Positions 401-36,356 of a stretch of 37,858 nt of DNA are shown in pieces; position 1 is the stretch's first letter, and the number at the start of each line of letters is the position of its first letter. The position numbers were made by a program, and so were the translations under genes. The notes beneath the pieces were generated by a model. It was not told the DNA's origin. It saw nothing but the letters and a program-made list of their open reading frames with translations, and made no database searches. Origin of the DNA: a virus; IMG/VR virus record IMGVR_UViG_3300025520_000136, positions 1-37,858 of that record; one strand, 5' to 3'.

Positions 401-1000
401 TCACGGCCCGGCCAGCCGCCGCCCGTGCCAGGCCGGTTCCCACGTGGCCAGCGCCGCGTCCTGCGGTACGGCTGGAAGCAGCCCGTTGCCCACCAGCTCG
501 ATCGCCCGCCGGAACAGCCGCAGCCCCATCGGCCCCAGCTCGCGCCGCCATAGCGCCGCCGCGTCGTCGTCCGGTCGGATATGGCACCAGTCCTGCAGCG
601 CGATCGCACCGGTATCGGCCCCGTCGTCGATCCAGTAGATCGTCCCGCCTGTCACCCGCTCACCCATGTGCACCGCCCAGCGGATCGCATCGCGCCCCCG
701 GTGCCGGGGCAGCAGTGACGGGTGATAGCCAATCGCCCCCAGCGCTGCGCGGGCACGCGCTTCGGCCGGGACAAAGCAATGGGCATGGGCGCACAGGATC
801 AGGTCCACACCGTCCGGCACCGCGCTGGAATCAAGCCGCCGGGGCGCGATGCTGACCGGCACGTCGTGCCTTGCCGCTACTTGGGCGAGGCTGTCGTCCA
901 GGTCCGGCACCGCCACGCCCAGCACGCGGTGCCCGCCTGCCAGACACTGCTTCAGTAGTTCCCGGCCGAGCCACTTCTGGCCCGCAATGAACAGCCTCAT
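401..1000 (-). CDS. formyltransferase-fold protein (Formyl_trans_N), 199 aa
   Basis: This looks like the N-terminal catalytic half of the formyltransferase family (methionyl-tRNA formyltransferase, GART, ArnA), which moves a formyl group from 10-formyl-tetrahydrofolate to an amine. The diagnostic HPSLLP loop is at residues 93-98, followed by an Arg-Gly pair, a TGGT segment near 117-120 and the DDGADTG loop at 125-131. His93 and Asp129 match two of the three usual catalytic residues. The third, normally an Asn two residues before the His, is Gly91. The C-terminal substrate domain of Fmt is missing. The ATG overlaps the stop of the ATPase-GNAT gene (ATGA), so the two are translationally coupled. 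Placement in a com operon suggests nucleic-acid base modification as the role; that is inference. Confidence 0.8.
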   Translation of the reverse strand: MRLFIAGQKWLGRELLKQCLAGGHRVLGVAVPDLDDSLAQVAARHDVPVSIAPRRLDSSAVPDGVDLILCAHAHCFVPAEARARAALGAIGYHPSLLPRHRGRDAIRWAVHMGERVTGGTIYWIDDGADTGAIALQDWCHIRPDDDAAALWRRELGPMGLRLFRRAIELVGNGLLPAVPQDAALATWEPAWHGRRLAGP

Positions 1001-2127
1001 GGAGCGCCCTCATCCAGCAGATAGCGGAACCCCTGAACCGCCCGAAAGTGCCCACCAAAACCAGTGCCGGGACTATGGCCGGATATCTTCCCGCGCTCGG
1101 CCGAGCGGCGCAGCGTCTCCACGCTGCGCGCCTTCAGCTCGCCGTGCAGCCGCCCGGAAACCTGTGTCCAGCCCCGCGCCCGCCGCAGTGCCGCCGCAAG
1201 GCCGGGGTGGCTGGTATGGAACAGCGTGGGCATGGGCCGGGCATAACGGTTGCGCCCCTGCGCCCAGGCCTCGCACACCGCGTTCAGGAACCGCAGGCCT
1301 ACGCCGATGCCCTGCCACTCCGGCATGATCACCAGGCGGCAAGCGCGCGCCTCGACCAGCCCCGGCCGGGTGGACACCGCCACGTGCGCCACCGGCTGGC
1401 CATCGATCAGCCCGACATAGCAGCGCGCGGCGATCATTCGCGGCAGCTTCAGATAGTGATGCGGCTCAAACAGGGGCCAGTGGCTCCAGTCACTTTCCCG
1501 GATTTCCAGCTCGATTGCGGGGCGACATCGAAGACGCCCCCGTTCCAGCGATCCGGTCGCCGTGTCGTACACCCAGTCGGGTTGCAGCCAGTCGAGAATG
1601 TCATAGTGGCACGACAGCAGCACCGCACGCCCCCGGCCACGCCGCCAGGCCTTGGCAAAGGCCGCCGCGCCAACGCAGGCGATCTGGCGGTCTACCACGG
1701 ACGAGAACTCGTCAACCACCGCCAGCTCCGGCGCTTCGCAGACGAGGCGCGCCAGCATCGCCCGGAACTTCTCGCCATTCGACAGGATCGCGTGCGGCCG
1801 CAGCCAGGTCGGAACGCTGCCAAGGCCCACGGCGGAAAGCGCGCCCGTCACCTGGTCAAACGGCAGGCTGGGGCCGATCGCGTCGATGATCGGCGCGCCG
1901 TCCGGCCATGGCGGGTCATAGATCGGGCCGATTGCCGCCCCCAGGCTCGTCTTGCCAGAGCCTGACGGGCCGACGATCACGCCGATCTGCCAGTCCTCGT
2001 CCACGCCCGGCAGCTCGGCCTCGATGTCGAACCGGGTGGCCTGGTCGGACACGTTGAACAGCGATTTGACCCGCGCCGCACGGTACGTGTCCGCGTCGGC
2101 GCAGCTGTGGTGCACCGCCAGCTTCAT
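997..2127 (-). CDS. ABC-type ATPase fused to a GNAT acyltransferase, 376 aa (Mom-position enzyme)
   Basis: Two domains are visible. Residues about 40-200 form an ABC/SMC-like ATPase: Walker A GPSGSGKT at 53-60, a signature-like LSNGEK at 115-120, Walker B ending in Asp139-Glu140, and a switch His at 174. Residues about 205-340 look like a GNAT acyltransferase, with the acyl-CoA pyrophosphate loop around PEWQGIGVGLRF (269-280). In Mu the corresponding place downstream of com holds mom, itself a GNAT-related enzyme that modifies adenine in DNA. The natural reading is an ATP-dependent DNA-modifying acyltransferase that protects phage DNA from restriction; an analogy is TmcA, a nucleic-acid ATPase-GNAT fusion. 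The ATG overlaps the stop of the 65-residue gene and sits in a potential hairpin. Substrate and acyl donor are unknown. Confidence 0.85.
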   Translation of the reverse strand: MKLAVHHSCADADTYRAARVKSLFNVSDQATRFDIEAELPGVDEDWQIGVIVGPSGSGKTSLGAAIGPIYDPPWPDGAPIIDAIGPSLPFDQVTGALSAVGLGSVPTWLRPHAILSNGEKFRAMLARLVCEAPELAVVDEFSSVVDRQIACVGAAAFAKAWRRGRGRAVLLSCHYDILDWLQPDWVYDTATGSLERGRLRCRPAIELEIRESDWSHWPLFEPHHYLKLPRMIAARCYVGLIDGQPVAHVAVSTRPGLVEARACRLVIMPEWQGIGVGLRFLNAVCEAWAQGRNRYARPMPTLFHTSHPGLAAALRRARGWTQVSGRLHGELKARSVETLRRSAERGKISGHSPGTGFGGHFRAVQGFRYLLDEGAP

Positions 2128-2138
2128 ACGCACACCAC
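2107..2138 (-). promoter_or_regulatory. potential RNA hairpin enclosing the ATPase-GNAT start codon
   Basis: On the minus strand GTGGTGTGC (2138-2130) can pair with GTGCACCAC (2115-2107), giving 9 base pairs of which two are G-U. The 14-base loop contains the ATG at 2127-2125, and the 5' arm covers the AAGGTGG stretch that would serve as ribosome-binding site. Mu mom has an inhibitory stem-loop over its start, opened by Com binding. The same arrangement next to a Com homolog suggests the same control. The function is inference; the complementarity is seen directly. Confidence 0.45.
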
Positions 2139-2321
2139 CTTCAGCTTGAAGCCAAGCCGGTGCAGCCGCGCATAGGTCCGGCTCTGGTCCGCCTCGTCGC
2201 GGCACTGGATGATCAGCCCGTATTGCGGGCGGTACTGGAAGCCGTTCCGGCCGGGTACTTTCCGGCCGGAAGGCTTGCTGTTTAGGCGCCGCGCACCTTG
2301 CGCGGAGGCACTGTTGGACAT
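2124..2321 (-). CDS. small protein between com and the ATPase-GNAT, 65 aa
   Basis: I do not recognise a named family. The N-terminal 25 residues are basic and Ser-rich. The C-terminal 40 residues (QYGLIIQC near 32-39, then a helix and a final KVVCV strand) look like a compact alpha/beta fold. The ATG at 2321 follows a CGGAG ribosome-binding sequence. The gene overlaps the last 40 bases of com in another frame, and its stop overlaps the start of the ATPase-GNAT gene (ATGA). This chaining implies translation from com through to the enzyme. It could be an accessory subunit, or mainly a translational relay. Confidence 0.7.
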   Translation of the reverse strand: MSNSASAQGARRLNSKPSGRKVPGRNGFQYRPQYGLIIQCRDEADQSRTYARLHRLGFKLKVVCV

Positions 2322-2506
2322 GACGATCTCCGGTGGCTGCTCTGCTGGCGCTCCGGGAATTGGCTCGGCGTGCCCGTGGGCACTGGCCTGAACAGGTTGA
2401 TCTGGCGGCAGCGTCGGCACTTGATCTCGATCGTGCCAGCCAGTGCGCCAGTCTCTGCTCGGAACAGCAGGGCATTACAAGCCCCGCAACGAATCGACTC
2501 CTTCAT
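2282..2506 (-). CDS. com: Com-like zinc-ribbon translational regulator, 74 aa
   Basis: The N-terminal 40 residues match Mu Com closely: MKESIRCGACNALLF at the start, then IEIKC and RRC. The two CxxC pairs (Cys7/Cys10 and Cys30/Cys33) form the zinc-binding knuckle. Mu Com binds com-mom mRNA and exposes the mom start codon, so this protein probably controls translation of the downstream modification genes. The ATG at 2506 is preferred because it gives the Com-like N-terminus; a GTG at 2515 would add three residues. The C-terminal 35 residues are basic, Ser/Pro-rich and unlike Mu. The gene heads the operon and follows a 167-base region with a strong palindrome. A small hairpin (2289-2305) lies just before its stop codon. 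Confidence 0.88.
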   Translation of the reverse strand: MKESIRCGACNALLFRAETGALAGTIEIKCRRCRQINLFRPVPTGTPSQFPERQQSSHRRSSCPTVPPRKVRGA

Positions 2507-4213: not shown

Positions 4214-4256
4214 TTCTACTCCTTTATAAAACTGCAAAGGGTGGAGTCAGAACTCA
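4214..4256 (-). promoter_or_regulatory. possible promoter after the protease gene
   Basis: On the minus strand an AT-rich TTTTATAAA (about 4222-4231) precedes the AAGGAG site of the next gene, with a weak TTCTGA about 18 bases further upstream. AT-rich stretches are rare in this window. The -35 match is poor, so this is tentative. Confidence 0.25.
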
Positions 4257-4669
4257 AGGGTCCAAACCCCGTCCCGCACTCCGAAAAAATGTGCGCATCC
4301 AATGATGTCCATGCCGATCAGCATGTGCATCGGCGGAACAGGCGAAAGCATCTGCTGGATGACCGCTCCACGCCTGGGCCAACAATCTCCTGGCAAGCCA
4401 GGCTTCAGGAATTCTAGATCGGCAAAATAGTAGGGGACGATCGCAGGAGACCCGCCTACACCGGCTGCGAAATCGGTCTTCCCCTGTACAACAGGCAACC
4501 GAAGAAATGCAGCCATTGGGGCGCTGATGGCCGTGTGCATTGCGCCGGTATCAACCAGCGCGCTGATCGCCACACTGCTATGAATCTGGCCCGGCGCATA
4601 GACAACCACTGGTGCGATGCACCGTCCGGCCATGATGCGATCCTCAATCATCCAGTTTGCTTGCGCCAT
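4247..4669 (-). CDS. retropepsin-like aspartyl protease, 140 aa
   Basis: Residues 37-43 read SALVDTGA, the active-site motif of retropepsin-type aspartyl proteases (catalytic Asp40-Thr41-Gly42), followed by Thr46. Near the C-terminus HMLIGMDIIG (115-124) matches the second conserved hydrophobic-Gly segment. One such motif per chain means it would act as a dimer. The ATG at 4669 is preferred because GGAGG lies five bases upstream; the frame stays open to an ATG at 4885, which would add 72 residues of odd composition. The gene sits between the large tail protein and the last tail genes and is lower in GC than its neighbours, as expected for a late-acquired moron. It might trim a tail protein or act on host envelope proteins. 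Confidence 0.75.
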   Translation of the reverse strand: MAQANWMIEDRIMAGRCIAPVVVYAPGQIHSSVAISALVDTGAMHTAISAPMAAFLRLPVVQGKTDFAAGVGGSPAIVPYYFADLEFLKPGLPGDCWPRRGAVIQQMLSPVPPMHMLIGMDIIGCAHFFGVRDGVWTLEF

Positions 4670-4898
4670 TTGATCCTCCACTTCTGGTTGAAGGGCGGGC
4701 ATACCCTGCGGTGGAGCCGGGTAATAGGCGGCCCCTGCAACCCGGTGGATCGAGGCAGCGCTGGGGACCCACGCGATGCGTGGCCTGCCGGACGATTTGT
4801 AACCGACCACACCGCGAAGCGCGCACGGCCCGAGAGATTTCTCTTGGCCCGTCGCAACAAATGGGGAGGTTGAGATGTCATGCACTTTGCAACCTCCA
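4670..4898 (-). other. 229-base region between the large tail gene and the protease start
   Basis: The protease frame stays open here to an ATG at 4885, and another frame begins at an ATG overlapping the large tail gene's stop (4899). Neither translation looks protein-like, and GC is lower than the surroundings. I see no clear promoter. It may be leader sequence of an inserted moron, or an N-terminal extension of the protease. Confidence 0.35.
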
Positions 4899-7800
4899 TC
4901 AGCCCGTGACGTAGGATTGTGATGCGAGGATCGCCCCGCCAGCGCCGGACGGCGTGCGGACTTCGATCACTCGGAATTCGAAGACCTGCTCAATGCCGGT
5001 GGAATTGGTGAAAGTTCCAGAGGTGCTATCGCCGCCTGGTTCGCTCGGTCCCGTCGCCGATCCAGCGCCTGTTGCGACGGTGCTCCATGAGCCCCCATAC
5101 GGCCGCGACTCAATGCGGGCGCGGATGGAACCCGAAACGCCGCCAGCATCGCAGTTCACCAGCGCGGACAGAGCCAGCGTTCCACCGGACCCGATCTTGC
5201 GCTTGATCGTCTCGCCATAGGCCGCCGACTGCACGCCGCCATTGTATGCCGTGGTGAGCTGGGCGGCGGCAGTTGCGTCCAACTGCGCCAGGTTGTTGGC
5301 GGTCGCGCCAGCCCCTTGCCCAGCAATCGCGGCAGCGGTCCCGAGGCCTGTCTCGATCTCAGAAACCAGGTACTTGGTCGCTGTGCCGGACTTGATCAGA
5401 TCCTTCCCAAGCTGGGGAACCTTGGAGATCATGACCTGCAAGTCAACCCGGCTGCCCCGCGCGGTCGATTTGAAGCGGAACTGGATGTTCCGCATCGTGT
5501 TGCTCGTTGCGCGGAAATAGAACTCCTGAACCCCGGTGTCGCCAATGGCCGCGATGGCGTTGGCCGAGCCGCCGACATCAGAGTTCACTGCTGCGCCGTG
5601 TTTCAGGCTCCACCATGCCACGTTCGGCATATGAATCAGTGCCCAGAAGTTCCCGGTCCAGCCGGCCCCCGCGTCATTATTCCAGATTCTCGTGCGGACC
5701 CGGTAAACGGACCCAGGCTCGATATTGAAATAGGCGGACGAAAAGTCGAAGTCGCGATCGCAGGTGAAGGAAATTGAGCGGTTCTGCTCCCAATACGAAT
5801 CCATCGCCAGGAACCCGACATTGGGAAGGCCGGAAAAGCCCCACCAGCTCGGATCGCGATAGTCACCGTCAGGGATGATGTTGTCGTAACCCGAGACCAG
5901 CAACCGGCTCGCGCCGGCATAGTTCTGGGTGGCAAAATAGCCTTGCCCTGCGATGGCAGCGGCAGCGCGGCTCTCGGTGACGTTGGCGCCAGCTTCAGCA
6001 GGCCATACATCGTTCAGGAATGCGACCCCTGGCTTATAAACGTGCAGGGACTGGATGTTCCCATCATTCTGCAAATGCTGAACCTGACCCGCCACGTTGG
6101 ACGGCACCAGCCCGCTATAGGTCGCCCACGCGGACTGCCCGTTGATCGCCGCAGCGGTGCGGATCTCGGTGACGTTGGCGCCAGCTTCAGCAGGCCAGAC
6201 ATCGTTAAGATAGGCCACGTTCGGCTTGTACACGCGCAGCGCCTGAAGGTAGCCGGTGGGTTCAAGATGCTGGATTTGCCCGGCCACATTGGAGGGGGCA
6301 AGGCCGTTATACGTCGCCCATGCAGACTGGCCAGTGAACGCAGCCGCGGTGCCCAAGGCAGTCTTGAAGTTCCCCAGCGTGGCCTGCGCCCCGCCACTGG
6401 TTTCAAGCAGTGTGCTTGATCCAAAATTCACGCTGGCCAAACCGGCCAGCCCGCCGAAGCCCGTCAGGTAGGCGCCTCCATATGCAAGGCTGCTCTGGGT
6501 GGCGAGCGCCCCTTGGCCAGCGATGGCAGCAGCCGTGCCCGCTGCCGTCACAACGTCAGCATCACCCAGATAGGCCGTGTCGGCGCTGTTGCGCAGGTTC
6601 AACCCGACGCGCGCCCCGCGCGTGGCGTCGAGGTCGCCAAGATAGCCAAGCCCCCCAATCGTCACCGATCCGCCGCCAGCGCCGCTCAGCGCGCCATTCG
6701 CGCCGATCGTGATGTTCGCGTTCACATATGGGCTGGCGCTGGGGGCCGTGGCCAGCGGCCCTTGGCCAGCGATCGCCGCAGCCGTGTTCTCGCCGGTCAC
6801 GTTGGCGAATAAATCGGCCCCGCCGTCATGGTAAACCGGCCACGCGGTCTGATCTGCCGGCACACGGCACAGCATCATCTGCGTGTAGAACAGATACGGG
6901 TCGGTCTGCCCGCCGTCAGTCGCCCCGCGGATCCAGATACGCGCGTACCGGGCATTGGCCGGGGCGAGCAAGAAGCCGCCGACACGATCGAAACTACCCG
7001 GCTCGCCACCGTTCGCGCCGTTGTTCCGCCCGCCCGAAGCAGCCACGGATTCGGTCAGATATGCCCCGCTCGCGTCGTACCAACCGACCTTCAGGTCAGG
7101 GGCATAGGCAAGCCGATGATAGGCCACCAGCGCAGAGGCAAACACCCGATCGCCGCCGGATACTGGAAGCCACCAGCGCTTCGGGTTTCCGCCAGACGGG
7201 TTGTAGCTATCGAACACCCCCGCCGGCGGCGTTCCGAGAACTCTGGTGTAGGCGGTCGAAAGCGCCCCGGAATATCCCGGCAATCCGACCCCGTGCTCGG
7301 ACGTGAACGAAGCATAGTTGTACCAGCCCGGTTCCCACCCGTAGCTCCCGTTCTCGAATGCAGAGTTCGTGAGCACGTTCTGGCCCAGACCGACCGCGTA
7401 ATTCATCACCGCGCCAGCAACTGCCGTGGCCCCAGGCCCTTGCCCGGCGATGGCGGCGGCGGTGCCCGCTGCGGTTACGATGTCCAGGTCGCCGAGGTAG
7501 GCCGTATCCGCATTGTTGCGCAGGTTGACGCCAGAAATCGCGCCCCAAGTTGCATTATCCTGCGGCTTGCCCGCCCCGCTGATCCGCGTGGCCCAGTCGG
7601 CGAAATTCTGTGTGGCGAAATAGCCCTGCCCGGCGATGGCAGCGGCGGTGCCCTCAGCCGTGATGACCTGCGCCTGATTCGGGATATTGCCATCAGTAAG
7701 TCGCAGATCGCCTCCCACCGTCGCGCCGGCGGTGGCACCGGGCTGGGCAGGCTTCAGCGCCTCGATCGAAGTTCCATCGAGGTACGCCACTTCGCTCGAC

Positions 7801-8969
7801 AGCACGATCGCGGCCAGATCGCCGCGCTGCATCGGCGTTTCATTGCGCTTGTAACCCAGCTTGCGCGTGGCGAGCGGGCGCAGCACTTGCTCGCGCGATA
7901 CGTCCTGGCTGGTCGCTGACGCCACAGAAGCGCCCCAGGCCCACTCCCGGATCGTGATTGCGCCATTGTCATCCAGCAGCCACAGCAGCGAACTGTTGCC
8001 CAGCAGCTCGTCCAGCATGGCCGCAACCGTGCTGGTATCGTCCTTTGCCACCCACCCGACCGGCGCCGGGCGCGCGGCGGAAGCAGCCGACACGCTGCCA
8101 GCGGTAAAGGCCGGGCCGCCGATGGCCTCGACCAGGCGCTGGGCGATCCCGGCCGTCGTCTCGACATAGCCGCTGCCGACTTCGCCGCGCAGATCCGCGC
8201 ACAGTTCACCAGCGGGCTGGGTCCACCATTTGACGCACGCGATCGATGGGCACGCCACGCCTCCACCGGGCGGGGCACTGGCGGCCTGAAGCGCGGCAAA
8301 GGTCGCCGCAGCGCTGCCCTGCCACGCCAGCGTGGTAAGCGCCGCCGCCGGTGCGCCCTTATCGCGAACAGCATCGAAAGCCTGCAACGGGCGGAGCGGA
8401 TCTGCATAGCAGTAGATGTTGTTCGCCGCATCGAGCGGGTCGCCGCTCAGGTTCCAGATCCGGCCCCAAACGCGGCGGCGGATCTGGCCGTCCCATTCTG
8501 CCGGGCCTTCAAGCCCGCCGGTGCCAGCGAACCGCGCGGTCAGTAGCGGCTTTTTCAGGCTGGTCGCCGGATCGGCCAGCGCGATGGTCAGTTTCCCACC
8601 CGAGGCCTTCGCATCGAGCACTTTGCCGCTGATCCGGACCGGCGGCAGCGCAGCGCCCTCACTGCCGATCCGCACCGTGATGGGGGCATCGGCCCAGACA
8701 TAGCTGGCTGTGGCCGATAGCAGCGCCTTGTTCGAAGGCGCCCATTCGATCGCGGCCGCTGCTGGCACGCTGCCCGCCGGGAACTCGCCGCCTTCATACT
8801 CCAGCGACGCGATCAGCGTCGGCAGCCCCACGACCCCGGCACGCCAGTCGGTCTGGCCGGAATAGGTATAGGGCGCGAGCGCCCCGCCGCCCGCCAGCCG
8901 GATCGTTTCGGCGATGCCGTCGGCGGCGCGGGCGGGCTGGGCCTCGACCAGGATGACTTGCGCGGGCAT
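4899..8969 (-). CDS. large tail tip / host-specificity protein with repeats, 1356 aa
   Basis: This is the gene right after the tape measure, where siphoviruses encode tail-tip and receptor-binding proteins. The N-terminal ~430 residues are a mixed beta region without obvious repeats and may attach to the tail tip. From about residue 430 to 1220 a short motif, TAAAIAGQG followed by an Ala-Thr pair, recurs eight times between longer beta-rich inserts, two of which are near-duplicates. The C-terminal ~110 residues (after the last repeat) look like a beta-sandwich of fibronectin type. The ATG overlaps the stop of the tape-measure gene. No chaperone domain or glycosidase motif was recognised. Which segment contacts the host is not decidable by eye. 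Confidence 0.75.
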   Translation of the reverse strand: MPAQVILVEAQPARAADGIAETIRLAGGGALAPYTYSGQTDWRAGVVGLPTLIASLEYEGGEFPAGSVPAAAAIEWAPSNKALLSATASYVWADAPITVRIGSEGAALPPVRISGKVLDAKASGGKLTIALADPATSLKKPLLTARFAGTGGLEGPAEWDGQIRRRVWGRIWNLSGDPLDAANNIYCYADPLRPLQAFDAVRDKGAPAAALTTLAWQGSAAATFAALQAASAPPGGGVACPSIACVKWWTQPAGELCADLRGEVGSGYVETTAGIAQRLVEAIGGPAFTAGSVSAASAARPAPVGWVAKDDTSTVAAMLDELLGNSSLLWLLDDNGAITIREWAWGASVASATSQDVSREQVLRPLATRKLGYKRNETPMQRGDLAAIVLSSEVAYLDGTSIEALKPAQPGATAGATVGGDLRLTDGNIPNQAQVITAEGTAAAIAGQGYFATQNFADWATRISGAGKPQDNATWGAISGVNLRNNADTAYLGDLDIVTAAGTAAAIAGQGPGATAVAGAVMNYAVGLGQNVLTNSAFENGSYGWEPGWYNYASFTSEHGVGLPGYSGALSTAYTRVLGTPPAGVFDSYNPSGGNPKRWWLPVSGGDRVFASALVAYHRLAYAPDLKVGWYDASGAYLTESVAASGGRNNGANGGEPGSFDRVGGFLLAPANARYARIWIRGATDGGQTDPYLFYTQMMLCRVPADQTAWPVYHDGGADLFANVTGENTAAAIAGQGPLATAPSASPYVNANITIGANGALSGAGGGSVTIGGLGYLGDLDATRGARVGLNLRNSADTAYLGDADVVTAAGTAAAIAGQGALATQSSLAYGGAYLTGFGGLAGLASVNFGSSTLLETSGGAQATLGNFKTALGTAAAFTGQSAWATYNGLAPSNVAGQIQHLEPTGYLQALRVYKPNVAYLNDVWPAEAGANVTEIRTAAAINGQSAWATYSGLVPSNVAGQVQHLQNDGNIQSLHVYKPGVAFLNDVWPAEAGANVTESRAAAAIAGQGYFATQNYAGASRLLVSGYDNIIPDGDYRDPSWWGFSGLPNVGFLAMDSYWEQNRSISFTCDRDFDFSSAYFNIEPGSVYRVRTRIWNNDAGAGWTGNFWALIHMPNVAWWSLKHGAAVNSDVGGSANAIAAIGDTGVQEFYFRATSNTMRNIQFRFKSTARGSRVDLQVMISKVPQLGKDLIKSGTATKYLVSEIETGLGTAAAIAGQGAGATANNLAQLDATAAAQLTTAYNGGVQSAAYGETIKRKIGSGGTLALSALVNCDAGGVSGSIRARIESRPYGGSWSTVATGAGSATGPSEPGGDSTSGTFTNSTGIEQVFEFRVIEVRTPSGAGGAILASQSYVTG
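5315..7655 (-). repeat. eight-copy TAAAIAGQG-type repeat inside the tail gene
   Basis: Copies lie near 5330, 5955, 6145, 6340, 6525, 6770, 7450 and 7635. Two consecutive ~192-bp units (starting near 5950 and 6142) are almost identical in both DNA and protein, sharing for example the run CTCGGTGACGTTGGCGCCAG on the plus strand at 5973 and 6165. The inserts between other copies differ greatly in length and content. It is a coding repeat, in frame throughout. Confidence 0.85.
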
Positions 8970-27020: not shown

Positions 27021-27410
27021 TCAGAGCAGCGGGAGCTGCCCGGTCTCTTTGCCCCGTCCGGGGCGTTCTGGCAAGTCCGCCTCGCGGGCGAACAGCTTGG
27101 TGACACCGGTTTCGGTCATCCCCAGGCGGCGGGCGATCCTCGCGTCGGACAGCCCCTCGCGGTTGCGATACCACAGCGCCCGTTCGCGCCGGGCCAGTGG
27201 CACGCGGATCGTGGCCGGGGCCAGCGCCCGGCTCAGCTTGTCGGCCAGTTCGCGGCCCAGCGCCTGGACCACGTCGTGATCGTCGCGCAGCGAATAGGCA
27301 ATGTACAGCCGGATGCCGCCCAGCTCCTGACACAGCCGCACAAACCCTTCCTCGCCGAGGATGGCTTGCAAGTGCAGCTTGAGCTGACCGGCATCCGTGC
27401 TGCTATGCAT
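27021..27410 (-). CDS. mor: Mor-type transcription activator, 129 aa
   Basis: Matches the Mor/C family: the dimerisation region contains LCQELGGIRLYIAYS (26-40), and the C-terminal helix-turn-helix spans about residues 84-109 (GLSDARIARRLGMTETG). Length equals Mu Mor (129 aa). These activators bind dyads and recruit RNA polymerase to middle (Mor) or late (C) promoters. It is the last gene of the early operon, and the two repeated promoter-like elements are its likely targets. No second Mor/C gene is seen in the window. Confidence 0.92.
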   Translation of the reverse strand: MHSSTDAGQLKLHLQAILGEEGFVRLCQELGGIRLYIAYSLRDDHDVVQALGRELADKLSRALAPATIRVPLARRERALWYRNREGLSDARIARRLGMTETGVTKLFAREADLPERPGRGKETGQLPLL

Positions 27411-35124: not shown

Positions 35125-35383
35125 GAGCGCGCCCTTTGTCAGCGGTTAGGTGGCGAAGGCGAATGGCGGGATCGGACCCGCAACCATCAACCCGGCGAAG
35201 CCAGCGCCAGATGGCGCTAGGGGAGACACCGCGACGGCAGGCGGCAATCGAGATCGCGGCGCTGCGCGTCTGACCGAGAGCCTCGATCGCCTCGACTTCG
35301 GCTACAACGGAGTAACGCTTGACGGCTGCGCTCAACGCAGCGGTAGAGCAGCCGCTCAGGTATGCGTTTGCGCCATCAAGCAT
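35114..35383 (-). CDS. stand-alone paralog of the transposase end-binding HTH, 89 aa
   Basis: Residues 25-67 align without gaps to transposase residues 136-178: 19 of 43 positions are identical by my count. Shared positions include SVV, the TRSAA run, an Arg-x-Gly turn and W-x-W-L-R followed by a final Gly. That region of MuA lies in the end-binding part, so the protein may bind the phage ends. It overlaps the ParB-like gene's stop and the methyltransferase start. It could compete with the transposase at the ends, act as a co-repressor, or hold ends during replication. Confidence 0.8.
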   Translation of the reverse strand: MLDGANAYLSGCSTAALSAAVKRYSVVAEVEAIEALGQTRSAAISIAACRRGVSPSAIWRWLRRVDGCGSDPAIRLRHLTADKGRAHAR

Positions 35384-36356
35384 CGCCCAGCTCCTTGTTC
35401 AGCCGGTCTCGCATTTCCCGCTTGAGGTCTGCCGTATGCAGCATCGCCGCCAGATCGGGGATGAAAGCTCGCCGCTCTCCCAGGTTCAACCGCTCCCAGC
35501 CGCCTCTGATCTGATTGCGGTATTTCTCCAGGTCGCGGCGCGGCGCGGCGCTATGATCTGCGCTACCAATGCCCTGCCGGACTTTGGCCTCATCCGCGCT
35601 CAGCTCCGGATCGCCCAACAGCAACTCGATTACCTGGCGGCGCGGGCCTTCATCGCGGATTGCCGCGATCGTCTTCAGCTGGCTGGCGTTTTCGCCGACT
35701 ACCGGGTGCGCTGCCAGCGCCTCGACCAGTTCGGCCGGAAAAGGTTCGATCAACAGCCGGTACAGGCGCATGTCGCGATAGATCGCGGTGCGCTCCATCC
35801 CCAGCGCATCGCCGACGGATTCTTCCCATCCGTATACGCGTTGCAAATTGCCACACGTATCTTCGGTCTCGTCCTTCAGCGCCTGCTCGGCGAGCAATTC
35901 ATGCTTGCGCACGGCGTCCCACCGGGCCTTCACGGCCAGCTGCTGCTGCTTCAGCCCGCCATGCTGGCGCGCGATCCGCTCCTGCGCGGCGTTCACCAGC
36001 GCGGCGGTGAACTTGGCCCGCTCCAGCGGGGCCAGCGGGCGGCGGTGCAGGTTCTCCGACGCTTCCAGGTCGGCCAGGTCTTCGGGCTTGCCGCTGACCT
36101 CGATCGCCCACACCGTGATGCCTTCGATCCGCGCGCCGATCAGCCGGTGCATGCCCGTCACCAGCCGCCAGGGCCGGTCCGCGTTCTTGGGCTGCGCCAC
36201 GACCTTGATCGGGTCGCGCTGCCCGTCGACGGCCATCAGCCGCCCCAGCGCCGCCGCCTTGTCCTGGTGCAGGAATCCGATCCGGTTCCCTTCGTCCACG
36301 TGATGCGGCGAAAGCTCAAACAGCTTCGCGCCCGAAAGCAGGCTTTTATCGTTCAT
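35376..36356 (-). CDS. ParB-like nuclease/partition-domain protein, 326 aa
   Basis: Residues about 10-110 form a ParB/Srx-type domain: QRDPIKVV, WRLVTGMHRLIGARIEGI (64-80) and ENLHRRPLAPLERAKF (101-116), the usual box order. A helical HTH-like part follows at 170-200 (WEESVGDALGMERTAIYRDMRLYR). Such proteins can bind or hydrolyse nucleotides and act on DNA; in phages their role is often unclear. The ATG overlaps the upstream stop (ATGA). Its occurrence in a transposable phage early operon suggests regulation or DNA organisation. Confidence 0.85.
   Translation of the reverse strand: MNDKSLLSGAKLFELSPHHVDEGNRIGFLHQDKAAALGRLMAVDGQRDPIKVVAQPKNADRPWRLVTGMHRLIGARIEGITVWAIEVSGKPEDLADLEASENLHRRPLAPLERAKFTAALVNAAQERIARQHGGLKQQQLAVKARWDAVRKHELLAEQALKDETEDTCGNLQRVYGWEESVGDALGMERTAIYRDMRLYRLLIEPFPAELVEALAAHPVVGENASQLKTIAAIRDEGPRRQVIELLLGDPELSADEAKVRQGIGSADHSAAPRRDLEKYRNQIRGGWERLNLGERRAFIPDLAAMLHTADLKREMRDRLNKELGDA

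Follow-up and report, generated by a model that had tools for sequence, protein, structure and literature searches.

The closest described system is com-mom of phage Mu, in which mom is responsible for N6-carbamoylmethyladenine (momylation), a modification that leaves a glycinamide-like group. The regulated gene starts within com (an overlap of 80 bases as annotated), and the pair lies at the genome end after the tail genes. In vitro selection (SELEX) gave CC(N)2-3GAG, displayed in the loop of a hairpin, as the target of Mu Com (PMC6483171). A second point of comparison is a family of proteins that couple an ABC ATPase to a GNAT acyltransferase, exemplified by Tenacibaculum phage pT24, for which the Aravind group predicted that a DNA base receives an acyl group of uncharacterised kind (PMC7824862). 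Two more distant comparisons are the hydrolase domain of 10-formyl-THF dehydrogenase (ALDH1L1/FDH), whose formyl acceptor is a phosphopantetheine thiol (PMC8748788), and the ParB-like protein DpdB, a precedent for ParB-like proteins in DNA base modification (PMC12839542).

We analysed a viral sequence of 37,858 nucleotides (the window), which is the complete IMG/VR record IMGVR_UViG_3300025520_000136. It derives from a Mu-like phage and encodes proteins of the MuA and MuB types as well as a homologue of the late transcriptional activator of Mu. An earlier note, made from the letters alone, had described a chained cassette of com, a 65-residue protein, an ABC-ATPase/GNAT fusion and a formyltransferase-fold protein (FT) in the mom position, and had proposed a base hypermodification other than momylation. 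All four frames exist as described. They lie on the minus strand, a point left unstated in the note, and overlap as claimed: com and the 65-aa gene by 40 bases (2282-2321), so that the regulated gene starts within the 3′ end of com, and the 65-aa/fusion and fusion/FT pairs by ATGA each (table 1). As in Mu, the genes lie at the genome end after the tail genes; here the regulated product is, by sequence, not Mom, the GNAT is fused to an ATPase, and an adaptor and an FT are added. The closest fusion protein (86% identical) is found in Novosphingobium hassiacum, so the host is likely to be a sphingomonad. By analogy with Mu, the late activator homologue is a candidate activator of the cassette.

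Table 1. Features of the window and of related loci (positions are those of the window unless a locus is named).
Feature	Position	Strand	Remarks
com	2506-2282	minus	ATG at 2506, TAA at 2284-2282; 74 aa, four-cysteine zinc-ribbon translational regulator
candidate Com operator region	2322-2411	minus	90 nt 5′ of the 65-aa start, inside com
65-aa gene	2321-2124	minus	ATG at 2321, TGA at 2126-2124
ABC-ATPase/GNAT fusion	2127-997	minus	ATG at 2127, TGA at 999-997; 376 aa
ATPase domain of fusion	2127-1540	minus	approx. residues 1-196
GNAT domain of fusion	1515-1015	minus	approx. residues 205-371
formyltransferase-fold gene (FT)	1000-401	minus	ATG at 1000, TGA at 403-401; 199 aa
Mu late transcriptional activator homologue	27021-27410	minus	phrog_836, E 3.8e-15
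ParB-like protein, separate from the cassette	35376-36356	minus	phrog_3264; early region; might supply the ParB function lacking in the 65-aa protein
possible aspartyl protease	4247-4885	minus	212 aa
tail-region protein	4899-8969	minus	1356 aa
frame past the cassette	1-279	minus	92 aa; record end
decarboxylase and short class III CoA-transferase-like gene after fusion	L174, L175, L176, L178, L179, L180, L187, L191, L195, L198, L207, L230; L168:4571-5682		

The first protein is a clear Com homologue, scoring 28.3 bits against Pfam Zn_ribbon_Com (cut-off 22.9), matching phrog_13819 (gpCom) and sharing 35% identity with Mu Com, including all four cysteines. In its relatives the start of the small gene usually overlaps com (66 of 78); at one Neisseriaceae locus (L092:3607-4807) com and the small gene lie approximately 0.9 kb apart. 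We searched the 90 bases 5′ of the small gene for the SELEX motif and found it in 69 of 74 loci that combine com with the cassette, against 26 in dinucleotide shuffles. The motifs sit mostly near positions −55 and −32, in one or two small hairpins with the loop C-N2-3-GA, the type also carried by the Mu com/mom overlap (AUGC-CUGCGA-GCAU). The second and third stem pairs show compensation above partner-shuffled controls (C-G 50, G-C 33, T-A 9 and A-T 4 for the second; A-T 43, G-C 35 and T-A 6 for the third). A test requiring the loop motif and three extra stem pairs was positive in 61 of 74 com-ATPase-GNAT loci (shuffle mean 1.4, maximum 7) and in 60 of 70 loci with a different gene behind com, in nearly every case one for a methyltransferase (shuffle mean 1.2, maximum 5). 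The coding overlap also constrains this region, and loci lacking Com serve as the control for that: two such sets gave 3/77 and 0/71. This motif-anchored test succeeded where alifold, applied to aligned or ungapped operator regions, returned no consensus because the hairpin positions shift among loci.

These comparisons support control of the cassette by Com at the level of the family. The operator of the window itself departs from the consensus, with an insertion in the first hairpin and a second motif (CCCGGAG) that has no stem, while the first hairpin of its nearest relative is near-normal. The control by Com suggested in the earlier note is thus backed by the operator common to the relatives and is best called probable for this particular phage.

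To see what Com precedes elsewhere, we collected 100 independent IMG/VR Com loci (L415-L514) in two scans, which are biased towards close Com relatives, so that the proportions are not a census. Fifteen of these loci have mom and five the present cassette; most of the others have a DNA methyltransferase directly behind com. About 60 of the 62 com-following proteins that were scanned are DNA methyltransferases, by Pfam MethyltransfD12 (38), N6_N4_Mtase (25) or C5 (one), double matches being possible; ParB-methyltransferase-like proteins stand behind com at L462 and L465. Com therefore looks like a general RNA switch for exchangeable DNA-modifying genes, reusable before interchangeable modules.

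This company of genes is the strongest evidence that the target of the cassette is DNA, and the operator hairpin common to cassette and com-methyltransferase loci points the same way. Together, these two independent lines connect a very widespread phage enzyme family, whose members are often wrongly named ABC or iron-siderophore transporters, with DNA modification. We consider DNA the likely target, as the earlier note had proposed, although the chemistry remains a prediction. Alternatively, the fusion could acylate a protein or RNA, such as the host RNA polymerase or the ribosome, with its place behind com a coincidence. GNAT substrates are diverse, and some phage GNATs, for example Rac of phiKMV-like phages, modify host proteins (PMC7824862). 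We nevertheless find this quite improbable: Com is tied to DNA-modifying genes in almost all other loci, the core partner of the fusion is ParB-like (see below), and the genes, which adjoin terminases in many phages, are placed next to the terminase or at the tail end of the genome and would be expressed late, too late for host takeover.

The ATPase and GNAT domains read in the fusion were borne out by matches above the cut-offs of Pfam ABC_tran and Acetyltransf_1; the protein also falls in phrog_11143. It belongs to the same family as the predicted acylation enzymes, since the pT24 genome matches it over 85% of its length (tblastn, E 1e-46). Records from Streptococcus, Lactococcus and Oenococcus annotate it as an ‘ABC iron siderophore transporter’ (for example, L165:2983-4157). 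An AlphaFold model (pLDDT 86) shows an ABC ATPase fold for the N-terminal part; a fold search with the whole fusion as query yielded ABC ATPases only, among the matches listed. The GNAT part has no close solved relative, and no homology between it and Mu Mom could be detected (hhalign probability 0.1, E 0.58). This agrees with the suggestion in the earlier note that the modification differs from momylation, but acylation of DNA by this family had itself already been predicted (PMC7824862). What appears to be new is the link with Com, the ParB-domain partner, the FDH-type donor enzyme and the operator.

Members of the family retain the ABC motifs (Walker A, signature, Walker B/D-loop), and these and the CoA-binding motif of the GNAT are kept in 142-158 of 159 near relatives. 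The near-invariance of the ATPase motifs would suit a DNA-bound machine for anti-restriction or DNA handling that depends on the ABC ATPase and a ParB-type domain, with the GNAT modifying this complex rather than the DNA. A weak match to PADLOC mad3 (E 3.7e-8) leans the same way, but its best stretch covers the P-loop only and we take it as a generic P-loop match. Such a machine seems very improbable to us, given that the other Com-linked genes encode DNA-modifying enzymes, that the CoA-binding motif is present in 158 of 159 near relatives and that two separate lineages have accessory enzymes of acyl-donor type beside the fusion (see below).

The 65-aa protein (phrog_28816, E 2.5e-22) is, from sequence comparison, the detached C-terminal domain (‘SM’ domain) of a ParB-like partner. 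The gene that precedes the fusion in phages of Gordonia, Pasteurella, Leptospira, Streptococcus and Arthrobacter encodes a ParB-like protein ending in this domain; its N-terminal ParB_N ranges from weak to clear in Pfam and, in Gordonia phage NHagos, comes only from the annotation of the record. The partner in Javan523 is annotated as a ‘DNA modification methylase’, and no methyltransferase domain was found there. Just before the fusion, the small domain is present in approximately 155 of 160 loci with a close fusion and in 62 of 76 and 69 of 73 loci of two distant lineages. The T4-like/Bacteroidetes lineage differs from the window clade, which has the small domain, FT and Com: of its 72 loci, 0 have any of the three. 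Com and the ParB form, the latter scored by frame length, exclude each other: 76 loci have Com with the short form, 42 the ParB form without Com, 27 the short form without Com and none Com with the ParB form. Because of this exclusion, and of the five changes between ParB and Com states that the tree requires, com-bearing phages appear to have dropped the ParB part and kept the adaptor domain. The strict gene linkage leads us to infer that the small domain and the fusion are physical partners. A sequence search of the small domain against solved structures gave only repeat-protein noise. In Porphyromonas phage phage007a_Bg4, this domain, beside the fusion, carries the label ‘acr candidate protein’ (L003:5876-6004), a doubtful anti-CRISPR assignment. 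The arrangement resembles DpdB and DndB, where a ParB-like protein likewise stands beside an ATP-using DNA-modifying machine (PMC12839542, PMC10853773), but here the enzyme is a GNAT and Com-bearing loci retain the C-terminal domain without the ParB domain.

Conservation of the cassette extends to hundreds of phages. The gene order com, small gene, fusion and FT recurs in Pseudomonas phage Komp_PAO1_1, whose com lacks an annotation and was read as a frame from the DNA. Fusion and FT also adjoin in Gordonia phages, in the order ParB-like gene, fusion, FT and terminase, and in P. gingivalis phages, after a 42-aa gene; the fusions of the Pseudomonas, Gordonia and P. gingivalis phages are 54-68% identical to that of the window. 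Fusion and FT are adjacent in most of 160 further loci, about half of which have Com upstream. FT follows the fusion in 108 of the 129 loci with enough sequence and is absent in 21, where no common substitute was found and a terminase or host flank mostly takes its place. It is confined to the window clade, and a quick tree gives 13 changes there, a pattern of repeated loss. FT is thus, judged by its distribution, an accessory, and because it is missing in about one-sixth of the relatives the core would be the ParB-like or small domain with the ATPase-GNAT. Its repeated loss implies either that the acyl group is sometimes other than formyl or that FT acts elsewhere.

The fourth protein has the formyltransferase fold ascribed to it (Pfam Formyl_trans_N, E 3.5e-23). 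In a profile search of the PDB, the best match is the FDH hydrolase domain (4qpd, E 4.5e-45), followed by Fmt (2.9e-29), and the FDH hydrolase domain is also the best fold match of the model (pLDDT 96; TM 0.87-0.88, 37% identity). Catalytic His93, Ser95 and Asp129 are invariant in our set A2 and kept by nearly all of 121 family members. The catalytic Asn of the N-x-H motif is absent in 121 of 121 and is Gly in the window. This combination, with His-x-Ser-Leu-Leu-Pro and Asp kept and Asn replaced, is that of the ALDH1L1/FDH hydrolase domain and the HypX N-terminal domain, and FT is, by these sequence criteria, of the ALDH1L1/FDH type. It differs from ALDH1L1 in standing alone as 199 residues that match the first 207 of approximately 310, in having neither carrier nor dehydrogenase domain, and in having Gly rather than Ile at the Asn position. 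An identity as PurN (GAR transformylase) is not borne out, and the database name phosphoribosylglycinamide formyltransferase is doubtful because the catalytic Asn is missing. The one-carbon enzyme of the earlier note is hence a formyl-THF enzyme, albeit of an FDH type that points to the making of an acyl donor and that is dispensable in some relatives.

GNATs use acyl-CoA. As FT is FDH-type, lacks the Asn and accompanies a GNAT that needs such a donor, the economical reading is that it supplies formyl-CoA. HypX, which has the same fold, is the proposed maker of formyl-CoA (PMC6802093), and placing Asn into FDH lowers hydrolase activity to less than 10% (PMC4388273). We put the donor step forward tentatively, since it draws on a single residue and on analogy with two enzymes, the HypX reaction itself being a proposal. 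A search by title and abstract gave nothing relevant in the literature on a formyltransferase in such a setting.

A different role for FT would be that of a tailoring enzyme: the GNAT adds an amine-bearing (for example, aminoacyl) group and FT formylates the amine in the manner of PurN, which formylates glycinamide ribonucleotide, a substrate akin to the group left by Mu momylation. An accessory gene that is often lost is what one would expect of a late step. The amine formyltransferases PurN, Fmt and ArnA, however, carry the catalytic Asn that all the members here lack, and the nearest relative of FT uses a thiol as acceptor, so that we regard tailoring as unlikely. Donor supply by FT, the reading we prefer, has a parallel in 12 distant loci, including that of Gordonia/Rhodococcus phage Jace, where the fusion is followed directly by genes for aspartate decarboxylase and class III CoA-transferase instead of FT, always both and with active-site motifs kept. 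The pair would fit beta-alanyl-CoA. Since it accompanies the fusion too, the best reading of the accessory genes is that their products provide the acyl-CoA from which the GNAT acylates the base.

On this basis, we propose with moderate confidence that the cassette stands in the place of mom as a Com-switched module, active late, for the acylation of DNA bases, a formyl-CoA donor step included. Com would bind the hairpins at the 3′ end of com and allow ribosomes to start on the 65-aa gene, a step suggested by the Mu precedent and the conserved operator, and the fusion and FT would follow by ATGA-coupled translation. The 65-aa adaptor domain would work with the ATPase-GNAT, whose ABC ATPase, driven by ATP, may load or move the GNAT on phage DNA. 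The GNAT would then use acyl-CoA to acylate an exocyclic amine of a base, which would protect the DNA from restriction. FT is predicted to take a formyl group from 10-formyl-THF and pass it to a thiol, that of CoA or of a carrier, and the resulting formyl-CoA would be the donor, with an N-formyl base as the likely product; this donor step is the weakest of the proposal. N-formylation of bases is not known to us from any natural DNA, and naming a specific reaction, from 10-formyl-THF to formyl-CoA, opens a way towards a DNA base that may be new. The most far-reaching form of the idea is unlikely to hold in every part: that a stripped-down FDH-type enzyme makes formyl-CoA from folate for base N-formylation, that relatives swap the donor, for example for beta-alanyl-CoA, and that Com is a general switch before exchanged modules comprising mom, three kinds of methyltransferase and the present cassette.

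Three other frames of the window drew attention. The frame past the cassette gave no PHROG match and only sub-threshold Pfam matches. Between the tail genes, a protein with no PHROG match has, by eye, a retropepsin-like look (LVDTGA ... LIGMDIIG), and may be an aspartyl protease. The long tail-region protein carries repeats of the type TAAAIAGQGxxAT.
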